Origin: Balamuthia mandrillaris
Taxonomy: Eukaryota > Discosea > Longamoebia > Balamuthiidae
Assembly: GCA_031835245.1 (NCBI GenBank)
Contig: JAVKOQ010000012.1
Span: 198,501-262,500 of the forward strand
Reading direction: 5' to 3'
DNA: 64,000 nt
The notes below the pieces were generated by a model. That model had not been told where the DNA came from and did no database searches. It saw nothing but the letters and a program-made list of their open reading frames with translations. The position numbers and the translations under genes were made by a program. Below are positions 28,599 to 34,181 of the stretch, one piece after another (the first letter of the stretch is position 1; each line of letters opens with the position of its first letter).

Positions 28599-30171
28599 TT
28601 ACTCTTGTAACAAATAAGTTTCGTCGGGAAGAGAGAATAAATAAACGCTACCGTCTTCATTGCCACTGGCCACCATGTCTTCGTTAGGTGTTAACGCAAC
28701 ACTCGAGATAGGATGAGTTGTTTTGATGGCGGCAATTTGAGCGTCCCGCCCTCCTCTGTGGCAATCCCAAAAACGCAAGCATGCATCTTCGCCACCGCTC
28801 ACGATGAAGCCGGTCTTAGTCCACTGACAGCTTTGCACACCACTTTCCTTATGGGTTCCTGTTATTGTTTGGAGGTGATCAACATGAGGCAACAATTGTG
28901 TATGAAATATGAGTCGTTAGGGGTAGCCTACCTCCGTGAGCAAACAGGTGAAGGGGTTCCTCCAATTTGCGAATATCATAGACGAGTATTGTGTCCGCAG
29001 TATCAGAGGAAAGGAAAAACCTGCCACATGGGTCAAACGATATTGTGTTTATATCTTGTTGCCCAGTGTTGATAACAGCGGAGCGGGTATGGCCTCCGTC
29101 CCGCATATCATACTGCCGAATGAGACCTTCCTCCGAACCCACCAAAAACGTGCTTCCTGTTTGGTCAGCCTGCATCATGAAGTATGAGAAAAATACTGCA
29201 GCAGAGGGGGAGAGGAGAAGACCTAAAATTAGTCTTCTTTTCAAGTTAAAACAAAACATACCACTACACAACAAAAGTCTTGAGTTGTTTCCCGTATAGA
29301 TTGTATCTGCATCTGAGCTTCCACATTCCATACCTGGATCTAAACAGTGAGTGGCAAGGCACAGCACATTGGTAGCATATTAGATTGCAATATTCTGGAA
29401 TGGGCGATGCTTACAGAGAAGACATACCTCGGCCTTTCTGTAATATGACCGAGCAATGGCAAGGAGTACGTTGGTATAAGGTGGAGTAGCGAATGTAATA
29501 TCATGCAAGCCAATTGGTCTTGAGGAATACCCTGCCTGAGAATGTAGCTCACAAAGGCAATCACCAGTTTCCATGTTCCACAGGAGCAATGTGCCGTTAT
29601 CGGCACAGGATGCAATGACGGCCTCCCTTTCTGGGTGCAAGGCGACACGGTTCACCGGTGCTGCATGACCCACTTCAGATCCACCTGATAGAATGACAAT
29701 TCTTTAGCAGATAATACGCTTGAAAGCTACGCAAAATATGAAGAACAAGATAATAATAATAATAACCAAGATTGTGCAACAATGAATAGCTCTTTGGATC
29801 CCATACCTATGAACATTGATGAGTATATTACTGAATAGAGCGCATCGGCGGAATCCGAAGTTACAAACCCGAACTATGTGGTCATGGCAGGCCGTTATCA
29901 AAAATGAGCCGGAAAGGGAAAATTGTGTATCGGATATGATGGCAGGAGGGCTATGTCCCTCTAGGACATGTACTTTTTTGCACTTTAAATCATAAACAAG
30001 TGACTCGTTTGGAGGACCTCCAGTACCTACCGCCAGCTGTTTTCTGTTATTCATTCTAGGTTAATTCAAGGAAAAAGACATAAAGGCCAGCAACTACAAA
30101 ATTACAATGCTGAGACATACTGATCAGGATTGGGATTGAACTTTACATCTATAACGGCCAGTGTTGCATAT
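28599..30171 (-). CDS. WD40-repeat protein, C-terminal exons
   Basis: A WD40 beta-propeller scaffold. Exons (minus) are 30171-30121, 30055-29869, 29806-29767, 29684-29428, 29339-29262, 29169-28932 and 28858-28599, all joining in phase. They give blades such as FSLSGSFLITACHDHIVRVW, VNRVALHPEREAVIASCADN then GTLLLWNMETGDCL, DINTISFDPCGRFFLSSDTA, and FIVSGGEDACLRFWD. The stop is TAA 28599-28601. No start codon is available in the first listed exon. Its 5' splice acceptor at 30172 pairs in phase with a donor at 32532, so the gene continues upstream across a 2.36-kb intron filled by the IS607-type element (see 32533-34365). I could not name the orthologue; cilia-, ubiquitin- and transcription-related WD40 families are all possible. 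Confidence 0.75.
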
Positions 30172-30281
30172 CTGATGGATTAAAAATCACACAAGTGAGT
30201 AAACTCACAAATGAAAGTTCTTGCGAAGACGCGGTGATGGGGTGGGCTAGAGGGCTACAGAAGCGCCCATCCACTTTCCCA

Positions 30282-31937
30282 TCAGCACGCCCCCATATGG
30301 CTCCATCGGGCAACGCCGCAACAGAGGCTCCTAAGGAGTATGTTGCGAGCTCCATTTATATCTCGATCCAGTCGTATCCCACAGTCCCTGCGTCCGCACT
30401 CGAAGATTCGCTCACGCCGGTTGTGTTGCTTCTGTTCGTGAGTCACATGGAGGCACCAGGTGCAAGTCTTGCTGGTCCAGGCCTCCGAACGAATGTAGAC
30501 CTTGGTGCCCCATTCCCTCGCCTTGTGCAGCAACCACTGGCGGAATCGGTAATGTCCCCAGGAATAGAGCATCCTGGCGGTCTTTTTGCCGATCTTCCTC
30601 CGCCGCCTCCCTCGGGTGGCCGTAATGCCCTTCACACCAAAGGGAGGGATGATGATGTGGTCGTAGCGGCGGCACAGGAAGAGGGCCGTCTTGCGGTGAA
30701 AGTCATCGACCAGGTTGGTGACCCTCTTTCTCAGTTTGAGCAGAGCGCGAAGTTTTCTCTTGCGGCGGCTCGGTGGGGAGCGGTCGATTTTGGACTGCAG
30801 GGCGTCGGCATGCTTTCCGAGGCGCCAGATGCGACCAAAGTCGTTGCGTCCAAACTCCCTCACCGTTCTCTCGGTAGGACTATATCCACACAGAAAGGTG
30901 CGAACCCCTGGATCCAAGGCCACGATGCTCCCTTGGTTATCAGGAGCCCGTTCATGATGTTGGATCGGGATCGGCACGCAGAGCCAAAAATGTTGACGCT
31001 TGTCCTTGTGCAGTGTGCAGGTTCGTCTCAGTCGGCCCTTGTCGTCCAACTCCAGGCCTTCTAAAGCGTACGCTACAGGGTCGAACATGGGGTCTATGTG
31101 CTTAACGTGGGGATTCGGCAACCGCCGTCGTCTGGGTGTCCTCTTGCGGGTTTCATTGGCTTCTTTCCAACGCTCGTTCACGTGGAGCTCGTCGGGGTAG
31201 ACGAAGCCCTTCCACCAGTGGACGTAATGTCCGAGGATCTTGATGGACTCGGTGCGGTGGTCCTTTTTGCGCTTGTACTTGATGGAGAAGCGTCGGATAT
31301 GACCCTGCTTCTTGAGCGTCCAGCAGGTGAGGTAATTGCCGTGGAGCTGCTTTACCGCCTCGTGCTTGATGGAGTAGGGGACGTCTTCCAAGTAATCGAA
31401 TATGATTCTAGGTTTAACCACGCAGACGCCCTGCATCCGACTCAGCTTCCACGCCACTCTACTCCTCTTCTTTTCCTCCTCTTCTTCTTTCTCCGTTGTC
31501 TTGCAGTCTCGAAGAGTGGTGTTCCAGACTTTCCTCGCCCCTCCGAACCAGCGGTTGAGGATCCGGGCTTGTTCCTTGGTGGGCCTCAGACGTATCTTTC
31601 TCGTCTTGAACAGCGTCGGATCTTCCTCCTCCTCTTCGTCGTCGTTTGGATCCTCCTCTGTCGCCCTTTTCGGTTTGCCTCGGTCTCTTTGACGTGCTCG
31701 AGCTGCCTCCTTGGCCAGCTGTATATCGTCTTTGACCGTGGTGTCTACAGACAAAGACGGTAACGAGGGAGAGGAGGTCCTCGGCGAGGACGTTGCTTGG
31801 TTCGGCCTCGTCGTCGTCCTCGTCGTCCGGACGGTGCACCAGGAGACGGGTTCCGCACCTACGGAAGATGTGCTCGACGAGCTCGTAGGCGATCCGACAG
31901 AGGCGGTCTCGGTGGGCAACCACAACCTCCTCGACAT
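30282..31937 (-). CDS. tnpB: TnpB / Fanzor2-like RNA-guided nuclease
   Basis: TnpB-family nucleases use an RNA from the element's 3' end to cut DNA through a RuvC domain; Fanzors are the eukaryotic counterparts. The frame is open from 32267, but upstream codons shadow tnpA. ATG 31937 is the last Met before the conserved core, which begins near 31613 (FKTRKIRLRPTKEQARILNR). The core is about 440 residues. RuvC-I Asp lies in SIVALDPGVRTF, RuvC-II Glu in VYIRSEAWTSKTC, and RuvC-III Asp in RLDRDINGARNIL. A CxxC...CxxxxC zinc ribbon (TCTWC, ECGRRDC) lies between II and III. An acidic linker (DPNDDEEEEEDP) precedes the core. Because the frame is +1 relative to tnpA with no AUG near the core, expression may need frameshifting, splicing or a long leader. 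Stop TGA is 30282-30284. All catalytic residues are present. Confidence 0.88.
   Translation of the reverse strand: MSRRLWLPTETASVGSPTSSSSTSSVGAEPVSWCTVRTTRTTTRPNQATSSPRTSSPSLPSLSVDTTVKDDIQLAKEAARARQRDRGKPKRATEEDPNDDEEEEEDPTLFKTRKIRLRPTKEQARILNRWFGGARKVWNTTLRDCKTTEKEEEEEKKRSRVAWKLSRMQGVCVVKPRIIFDYLEDVPYSIKHEAVKQLHGNYLTCWTLKKQGHIRRFSIKYKRKKDHRTESIKILGHYVHWWKGFVYPDELHVNERWKEANETRKRTPRRRRLPNPHVKHIDPMFDPVAYALEGLELDDKGRLRRTCTLHKDKRQHFWLCVPIPIQHHERAPDNQGSIVALDPGVRTFLCGYSPTERTVREFGRNDFGRIWRLGKHADALQSKIDRSPPSRRKRKLRALLKLRKRVTNLVDDFHRKTALFLCRRYDHIIIPPFGVKGITATRGRRRRKIGKKTARMLYSWGHYRFRQWLLHKAREWGTKVYIRSEAWTSKTCTWCLHVTHEQKQHNRRERIFECGRRDCGIRLDRDINGARNILLRSLCCGVARWSHMGAC
30367..30389 (-). repeat. 23-bp inverted repeat, arm inside tnpB
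   Basis: TCCAGTCGTATCCCACAGTC plus CCT on the plus strand, exactly the reverse complement of 32376-32398. It lies in the codons for the RuvC-III region. Confidence 0.9.
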
Positions 31938-32373
31938 GTCCAGCAAGGACTCGCTCCAGAAGGGCGACAAAGTCCTTGCGCTTCCAGTTGATGCCCGAGC
32001 CGATGTCGCTGTAGACCTTGTGCCTCGGGTAGGCTTCTCGCATACGCTCAACTTGATGCTTGAGGTGCTCTCGTTGTCCGTGACTGGAGACTCGACAGTA
32101 GATGGCCTTGATCTTTTCGGTGGCCTCGGGTTCTGGGACCGCGGCGGGGAGGCCAAGAAGCTCTCTAACGTGCTCTGCCGCGTAGCGGCGGTGCCCGCTT
32201 GGGGTGCGGAGGGCCGCCACCTTGCCCTCCGTGTGCCACTTGGCCAGCCCGCTGAGGGAGACGCCATAGCGTTTGATCAGCTTCGTGGGGGCGACGTAGT
32301 GCAGATCTTCGGTGGGTTCTCTGAGTCGTGGGGTAATGGTAGTGGTAGCGTCAATGGTGGTGGTTTGTGACAT
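31459..32373 (-). CDS. tnpA: IS607-family serine recombinase TnpA
   Basis: Cuts and rejoins DNA through a phospho-serine intermediate to move the element. The frame has 304 codons from ATG 32373. Residues 24-75 form a MerR-like helix-turn-helix (RYGVSLSGLAKWHTEGKVAA, TPSGHRRYAAEHV). The resolvase domain starts at about 88 with IYCRVSSHGQREHLKHQVER, catalytic Ser at residue 96. It continues with SDIGSGINWKR, VVVAHRDRLCRIAYELVEHI and the family C-terminal AEDLLSLVTVF ending near residue 205. From about residue 212 on, the frame overlaps tnpB in another frame and is a low-complexity Arg/Gly/Glu tail that may not be real. All recognisable catalytic motifs are intact. The start directly follows a 23-bp sequence that is repeated, inverted, inside tnpB. 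Confidence 0.88.
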   Translation of the reverse strand: MSQTTTIDATTTITPRLREPTEDLHYVAPTKLIKRYGVSLSGLAKWHTEGKVAALRTPSGHRRYAAEHVRELLGLPAAVPEPEATEKIKAIYCRVSSHGQREHLKHQVERMREAYPRHKVYSDIGSGINWKRKDFVALLERVLAGHVEEVVVAHRDRLCRIAYELVEHIFRRCGTRLLVHRPDDEDDDEAEPSNVLAEDLLSLVTVFVCRHHGQRRYTAGQGGSSSTSKRPRQTEKGDRGGSKRRRRGGGRSDAVQDEKDTSEAHQGTSPDPQPLVRRGEESLEHHSSRLQDNGERRRGGKEEE

Positions 32374-32375
32374 GT

Positions 32376-32398
32376 AGGGACTGTGGGATACGACTGGA
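32376..32398 (+). repeat. 23-bp inverted repeat, arm in tnpA leader
   Basis: AGGGACTGTGGGATACGACT plus GGA, two bases upstream of the tnpA ATG. It is the perfect complement of the tnpB arm 2.0 kb away. Confidence 0.9.
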
Positions 32399-32532
32399 AA
32401 GAACGGAGCGGTCGCTTAAATAGTTTCCACACGGCCCCGACAACCAAGCATTTGGTGTCAAGGACCGTGAAAACTGCGAAGGAACCCACAGGGGTCGTGT
32501 TGTAATTCGGGAAATAAAACAGTGAAACTTAC

Positions 32533-34181
32533 CTGCTTGTTGAAACCGCCTGAAACTGCTTGAAATGGTTTCGCTGTAGCTGAGATTTTTGCTGTTCATC
32601 GATTAGCGCCTTCAGTAATGGACAGCGGAATGTAAAGAGAAACAAGTAAAACACACCCAAGAAGGATTCCGGCTCCAGTCGTAGCAAAAACGCCGTTTCT
32701 GAACCAAAGGATACCACTTATAACTGGCTGTCACCTCTATTGGAAGAACAGCAGGTCAGAAACGGAAACATAGAAACAAGCGAGATGAATATGGACTAAA
32801 AATAAGTACAGGATGACGTTTGTAATGGCTGCGAATGTATACTTTTTGAGGAGGGTTGGCCAAGGCGAGGAAACCTGTTATCGCTGTTACGATAACGCGC
32901 AACTTCTGGGTAGGAGTTCGGAGTGCCACTATGTGTGTGTTAGAAATAAAATAGGACAACAAAAACATGGAGAAACAACAATTGTTGCTAGGTCACCTTT
33001 CTAGATCCTCAAGATATCTTATGAGGTCCTCCATTGTCCGACCAGGTAATATTTTACAAAGGTGGAGGAGGTTAAGCCGTTCAGATCTGGCAGCTATTCC
33101 TGATGATTTCACGGTAGACTCCTCCTCTGGAGAAAATGGAACGTGCAGGATATCCCCTTCTGCTAGTTCCGGATTGTACACTTTCAGCAGGCGAACGAGG
33201 GCAGAAGCCTTCAGATAAGGGCGTTTAGTCAACTGCCCCGGCTCCAAAAAGTACTGTCGGTACTCCTCCTCACTGGTAGATAATGGGGAAAAAAAGCATA
33301 GGAGCTTAAATAAGGATGTACTGGCGTGTCTCTCTTAATAAATACCTCGTTGAAAAGAACGCCTCTTTCAGTTTTGTAGGCCACCACTCAAGTTCTGTCT
33401 TCAATTCGTCCTTCCGCTGTAACTGCAATTACGATGTAATGAGGACTATGTGTGTGTGAGAGAGAGAAAGTGAGAGGAGACGAACTTCCTCTTGTATCCG
33501 TTGTCTAATACAAGAAACCCGCGGAGAAGGAGCAGGACTAGAATTGGCAACAGCAAGAATTTGAAGCATTGCGTCCAGTTGTGTCAGCATAGAAGCGTAC
33601 GGTTGCTATCCAATAGTGACGGTAATGTGTCAGAAGAAGCACAGTTAAGAAATAGCGAAGTCTGGTACCTTGTCTTCCGGTAGAGACAGTGCAGCATTTT
33701 GAGATAACGTCCGTAATAGAGTGTCTTCTCCCATTTGAACAATCTGGCGTGGGTAAAGCTCGTTCAAGTTTCTTTGCAACGCCTCCAGTCTCTGCTTAAA
33801 GAGTTGCCATTCAGGAGTGAAGGTTTGTTTCTCCTCCTCCTCCTCCCCCTGTTGGTTCTTGTTATTGTTGTTGAGTGGGGTGGCGGTTGGAAGCTGCTGG
33901 TCTTGTTCGGGCCGTTTTCGTTTCTTTCCCTCAGGAGCTTTCTGAGCTGTGAAAGGCCTCGTTTGTGGTGTGGGTCCCGCAGCGCTACCGCTCGCGCAGG
34001 CAGCAGTGAGTGTTTGAAGTGATATTGGCGAGGGGAGTGAGCCCTCCGCGTGGTGGAACGTAGCGTAAGGCTGCTCTTTCAGTGAAGTCTCCGGCTTTTG
34101 CAGCAAGGCTTGCAACCGCGCCAGCTGCTTAACTTGTGCTTGTATTTCATAGAGTCTGCCAAAATAGATCAGAAGACGGCA

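Follow-up and report, generated by a model that had tools for sequence, protein, structure and literature searches.

Host gene and structure of the element

The window, a 64,000-nt stretch of Balamuthia mandrillaris DNA, carries on its minus strand a WD40-like host gene, the exons of which were read from 28599 to 34115, N-terminus not included. Joining 14 exons, including one extra exon of the public model, gave 757 residues with a sole, terminal stop. One intron of the gene, occupied by transposase and nuclease reading frames, is 2361 nt long (32532–30172), and the 12 other introns measure 47–106 nt. The first-pass annotation had likewise described a 2361-nt intron between exons joining in frame, with other introns of 47–115 nt. 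The public model QOT17_002108 agrees with our reading up to the element and ends ...STSR at a TAA inside GTAAGT; annotation of the host gene was therefore cut short by the element.

The intron (30172..32532, minus strand, phase 2) starts with GTAAGT and ends with CATCAG. The sequence common to copies of the element runs up to both splice sites, and the joined exons are open. Its left end is the 5′ splice site GTAAGT (32527..32532, minus strand), found in 32 of 43 two-ended copies, with other GT forms in 11/43. The upstream exon ends in CAG (32533..32535, minus strand), the putative target and predicted TAM. Towards the right end, TACTCAC (30195..30201, minus strand) resembles a branch site and may act as one; ACTCAC lies within the last 40 nt of 37/43 copies. 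The right end is the 3′ splice site CAG (30172..30174, minus strand), as placed by the aligned copies and a 3′-end pattern search. The ends common to copies, GTAAGT after an exonic CAG on the left and TACTCAC...TTTTAATCCATCAG before any base on the right, correspond to a 5′ splice site, a branch-like motif and a 3′ splice site. Aligned copies follow CAG with GTAAGTGAAATTTCGTTTTTCTG and close with TTTACTCACTTGTGTGACTTTTAATCCATCAG before any base; the left end of the window copy is shorter (GTAAGTTTCACTG).

The left end of the consensus contains AAGTGA in the region of the 5′ splice site, and at the right end this motif returns as TCACTT next to the branch-like TACTCAC. The same letters may serve both as end repeats for the transposase and as splice signals, for instance at 32527–32532 and 30195–30201 of the window.

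Both ends of the element fall on splice sites, which leaves no host-intron sequence visible around it. The alignments indicate that it does not sit in a host intron; end to end, the element is the intron. Since it supplies both splice sites, it would have created the intron. For the window copy, this identity is suggested by its likeness to the rest of the family and by the joined frame.

TnpA and TnpB/Fanzor2 proteins

The TnpA frame (31459..32373, minus strand; homology over 31744–32373) encodes an IS607 serine transposase. The protein read from the ORF start at 32373 scored 143.6 bits against NCBIfam transpos_IS607 (NF033518, cut-off 110), which places it in the IS607 family. Against Pfam it matched Resolvase above and MerR below cut-off, and Ser96, noticed in the first pass together with HTH and resolvase motifs, lies in YCRVSS. 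PDB relatives of TnpA are serine recombinases, some of them labelled IS607. The element protein is publicly annotated as "Transposase [Balamuthia mandrillaris]".

The TnpB/Fanzor2 frame extends over 30282..32267 (minus strand), with the conserved protein at about 30285–31775 and an upstream part overlapping tnpA. It scored 145.5 against guided_TnpB (cut-off 100). The RuvC-I aspartate D293 (30912..30914), RuvC glutamate E436 (30483..30485) and RuvC-III aspartate D477 (30360..30362; all minus strand, P0001 numbering) were invariant in 16 aligned sequences together with four cysteines, in keeping with the apparently intact nuclease of the first-pass annotation. The best PDB match was TnpB-like protein L79 (entry 9b0l, E = 1.8e-26), which we take to be a giant-virus Fanzor2. 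According to the description in PMC10711439, Fanzor proteins are marked by DPG in RuvC-I and by a glutamate six residues before the zinc ribbon. Here D293 lies in DPG and E436 occupies the Fanzor-type position, six residues before the first cysteine; with the four cysteines, an RD motif and the IS607 context, this assigns the protein to Fanzor2, so that the Fanzor relationship proposed for checking was borne out. A search for a viral source gave 210 relatives in IMG/VR, with a best segment identity of at most 41% among 80 of the 210.

Between the window and C598 copies, the TnpB core differed at 40, 27 and 117 first, second and third codon positions, a concentration that points to past selection on TnpB. 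Four full-length copies matched TnpB without a stop (C11, which is the window copy, C718, C73 and C598), and the C39/C43 copy had a TAA near the end of TnpB.

The first ATG downstream of the TnpA start codon (element position 266) is in the TnpB frame (window 31710–32267, minus strand), and from it the frame is open to the end in full-length copies. The tnpA/TnpB overlap is the least diverged part relative to the C598 copy, with 13 differences in positions 451–750. Leaky scanning to this ATG, which is only a guess, and dual coding are possible. A later ATG was considered as the TnpB start and is not conserved. Likewise, the public model of a spliced TnpA-TnpB fusion (P0002) implies an 88-nt intron that is not conserved in all copies.

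A second Fanzor-like family (family B) was considered as another introner and not counted, as its 3′ ends vary (TAG in 5/8). The copies read represent an element of ~2.5 kb with inverted ends GGCGGCGC/GCGCCGCC and, by eye, a C2H2-like protein start; no TnpA was seen in them. Family B is numerous, with dozens of places (L051, L053–L060 and more), and is ~43% identical in the C-terminal half at the best place. L052 and a few others, with frames of ~730 aa, look like a third family.

Copies across the genome

The assembly of this amoebozoan comprises 64,792,369 bases (64.8 Mb) in 775 contigs. The element recurs in it as full-length copies and as shorter ones down to 59 nt. A genome search with the intron minus its outermost bases returned 66 matches, the longest of which start at query position 4; those of C718, C73 and C598 run to the last query base. 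When the query included flanks, similarity stopped at most 4 nt from the 3′ splice site in every other copy reaching there. A 30-base 3′-end pattern with up to 3 mismatches occurred at 83 places in the genome and its reversed control at none, so that the recurrence is beyond chance. A 31-base 5′-end pattern occurred at 30 places, again with none for the reversed control. Distinct sites are fewer than pattern places, because some places are near-duplicate contigs. A single genome thus holds closely similar introns at numerous non-homologous positions, with similarity ending at the splice sites, as in introners.

The two-ended set comprised 43 copies of 59–2371 nt from loci L001–L030 and L061–L116. 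Copies without a usable end were excluded, including 12 of the 22 loci at which the 3′ pattern occurred and the 5′ pattern did not. Among those excluded, L014 has the left end ATAAGT and joined flanks that are not open, the left ends of L002 and L007 are altered, and L004/L005 are without a right end. The uniformity of left ends is partly built in, because the 5′ search patterns contained CAGGTAAGT; the real test is provided by empty sites. Short copies retain the GT and AG ends and have lost nearly all else.

At L002 (G000:C718:12026-16576), a near-identical full-length copy is nested in an older copy of ~70–77% identity. The 5′-truncated copies at L095, L097 and L101/L103 have flanks with direct duplications of ~10–20 nt, unlike the clean insertions, and perhaps arose by another route, such as break repair.

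Empty sites and target

Joined flanks of 41 of the 43 copies (L081 and L088 left out) were searched against the genome in sets of 21 and 20. An uninterrupted counterpart was present in the same assembly for 26/41 insertions (15/21 and 11/20; for L105 only partly). At L071/L113, two copies of one sequence are interrupted 13 nt apart and provide reciprocal empty sites, which brings the total to 28/41. For the window copy, the joined-flank search found no second copy or empty allele in the assembly.

The empty sites are clean. In 27 aligned pairs of occupied and empty sequence (26 loci), mismatches numbered 120 over 4729 positions, and no gap lay closer than 22 nt to the joint. Besides the element, the occupied sequence has one additional AG or CAG, and excising GT to AG recovers the sequence of the empty site. 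The pre-insertion triplet was CAG at 23 of 28 loci (22/26 without the reciprocal pair). At the five other sites (L061, L083, L106, L109 and L113) it was CCG, CAA, CGG, CAA and CTG, each differing inside the AG core. Core mismatches amounted to 4/54 positions versus 120/4729 overall in the aligned pairs, although these are small numbers. The uninterrupted counterparts indicate that, as in introners, insertion goes into uninterrupted coding sequence, mostly at CAG.

A short common core without long target duplication is also what characterizes IS607 insertion; some 5′-truncated copies with flank duplications are the exception. According to PMC10711439, IS607 recombination takes place at GG dinucleotides, and the core here appears to be AG rather than GG.

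Movement by TnpA is not the only way in which such copies could spread. A genuine introner might instead be propagated through RNA, by reverse splicing and reverse transcription; ends coinciding with splice sites would be expected from reverse splicing, and the truncated copies with duplicated flanks at L095, L097 and L101/L103 would also fit. We regard this route as improbable, given that the element encodes a family-level IS607 TnpA and that its target triplet is nearly fixed. At L072, moreover, the copy with the element and the one without it both retain an apparent neighbouring intron, which argues against conversion of the whole gene through cDNA at this locus.

Reading frames across the joint

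After joining, the frame was kept in most copies: it was open across the joint (±60 nt) in 38/43 copies, compared to 27/43 on the other strand. With the joint shifted by 1–2 nt, 27–29/43 were open, and with a shift of 3 nt, 37/43; the test therefore shows the frame and not the exact base. When 10 joined peptides were compared with Pfam, an above-cut-off domain spanned the joint in five (Lyase_1, Myosin_head, PROPPIN, Guanylate_cyc and polyprenyl_synt) and a sub-cut-off kinase match in one. Two had matches beside the joint (Sua5 with Sua5_C; ABC_membrane), and two gave no Pfam match. The joined lyase peptide aligned with an adenylosuccinate lyase structure, ungapped at the joint. Relatives of the window host gene, besides the species' own model, are generic WD40 proteins, so that no orthologue tests the joint in the window.

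These frames bear on a second alternative, in which the ends are splice-like by chance or through TnpA-site selection, and occupied copies are unspliced, disabled alleles covered by intact ones. Many occupied genes do have an intact counterpart, and the case for splicing is drawn from sequence. However, open frames favour the sense strand and the exact frame, and short copies keep their GT and AG ends after losing nearly all else. For 13/41 joined flanks, the genome search with scoring of the best candidates found no empty counterpart; these include the myosin-like L111, the polyprenyl-synthase-like L102 and the cyclase-like L112. Disabled alleles are thus a very unlikely explanation.

The first-pass reading, in which the insertion struck an intron that the host gene already had, is barely credible. 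The element does lie exactly between exons joining in frame, and for the window copy the assembly holds no empty counterpart. However, the two splice sites are part of the repeat itself, no host-intron remnant is seen on either side, and 26 other insertions have counterparts with continuous exons and no intron. The other part of that reading, an element in sense to the gene and nearly harmless if spliced, fits the present results.

Conserved 3′-end fold and predicted guide

The right end of the element is predicted to form an omegaRNA-like fold closed by the helix GATGGA/TCCATC (30174..30307, minus strand). Fourteen copies (13 distinct) share this fold, in which the helix closes the last ~135 nt and ends two bases before the 3′ splice site. 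Five of its pairs are changed on both sides, three of them owing the change to two related copies. In 500 shuffles, none reached the covariation score or the number of double-changed cells, while 15 reached the number of double-changed pairs and 406 the number of pair types; on this last measure the fold does no better than the shuffles. Sliding the fold partners lowered every pairing measure. Folded alone, the window 3′ end gave a z of −2.1.

As described in PMC10711439, IS607 reRNA is ~150 nt long and runs past the right end, with a fixed right-flanking base in the scaffold; the Fanzor2 TAMs given in PMC10432273 are TAG and CCG. By analogy with these systems, a guide of ~20 nt is predicted at the start of the downstream exon (30152..30171, minus strand), beginning after CATCAG, with CAG as the TAM. 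Because the conserved fold ends at the 3′ splice site, the predicted guide is downstream exon and the predicted target is the intronless allele. Splicing would cut between scaffold and guide, and therefore mRNA and guide should compete. The earlier suggestion that the excised intron could supply guide RNA is unlikely: by the same analogy (PMC10711439) the guide is expected just 3′ of the element, and splicing would separate this downstream-exon guide from its scaffold.

Comparison with known systems

Introners, IStrons, Fanzor2 elements and shintrons, as described in the sources cited here, each share part of the features of this element. Introners (PMC9860276) are likewise repeated, exon-inserting elements that bring splice sites and restore the coding sequence. 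Most are described in the abstract of that paper as derived from nonautonomous DNA elements, in contrast to the full-length copies found here, which carry genes for a serine transposase and for an RNA-guided nuclease; its main text makes no mention of Balamuthia, amoebozoa or serine.

Group B IStrons (PMC4227781) are described as having an IS607-type ORF A, a TnpB-type ORF B, a similar size and splicing that makes the insertion harmless. Whereas their intron is a self-splicing one of group I and their targets are GG, the present element has spliceosomal signals and CAG, and its copies of 59–93 nt with GT and AG ends have little room for a group I ribozyme. The element is a spliceosomal analogue of bacterial IStrons, not a member.

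With the eukaryotic and viral IS607/Fanzor2 elements of PMC3627910 and PMC10711439 it shares, on their account, IS607 TnpA, Fanzor2 with DPG and displaced glutamate, and the lack of visible long terminal repeats. It differs in that the element itself is an intron and the core is apparently AG, not GG; the main texts of the two papers make no mention of an intron.

The mirusvirus shintrons of PMC12768974 also combine a nuclease gene with a spliceosomal intron and are proposed to home to intronless alleles. Their nucleases, in viral genes, are HNH, GIY-YIG and other homing enzymes, in contrast to the RNA-guided nuclease found here, which is accompanied by a transposase and occurs at many places in a cellular genome. 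A shintron is recognized by an HNH, GIY-YIG, VSR-like or PD-(D/E)XK nuclease in a spliceosomal intron; the present one is TnpB/Fanzor2 and bears a RuvC-type signature, and at most the element works like a shintron.

A literature search, outside which most subscription papers fell, tied no introner to Fanzor or IS607. Among the matches listed there was no introner with TnpB or a serine recombinase and no Balamuthia with Fanzor. The abstract of a 2025 introner survey reportedly lists TIR elements, retrotransposons, cryptons and helitrons.

Proposed mechanism and significance

Taken at the level of sequence, the element is with high probability an introner bringing along its own machinery, in the form of an IS607 serine transposase and a Fanzor2 that looks intact. 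TnpA, the presumed mover, would insert it into an exonic CAG with AG left on both sides, the crossover taking place at an AG core instead of the GG of bacterial IS607. In the transcript, the left GTAAGT and the right TACTCAC...CATCAG would act as 5′ splice site, branch region and 3′ splice site. Since the element ends would serve as splice signals, the spliceosome would remove the element exactly and leave the mRNA as before insertion.

More tentatively, and by analogy, RNA-guided homing may follow. The unspliced transcript could be processed to omegaRNA, at the expense of splicing, and the Fanzor2-omegaRNA complex could cut intronless alleles, recognized by CAG and the downstream exon. Repair of an allele cut beside CAG by copying the intron in would then aid intron spread.

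If this is true, the same end sequences would be transposase ends, splice signals and guide scaffold, and a programmable nuclease would be a present-day source of spliceosomal introns, the origin of which is a long-standing question. As transposase, nuclease, splice signals and polymorphic empty sites occur in one element and one genome, the birth of introns should be directly testable here. The finding also hints at what keeps an RNA-guided nuclease in a eukaryotic transposon: it may bring an intron that is otherwise silent to empty alleles.
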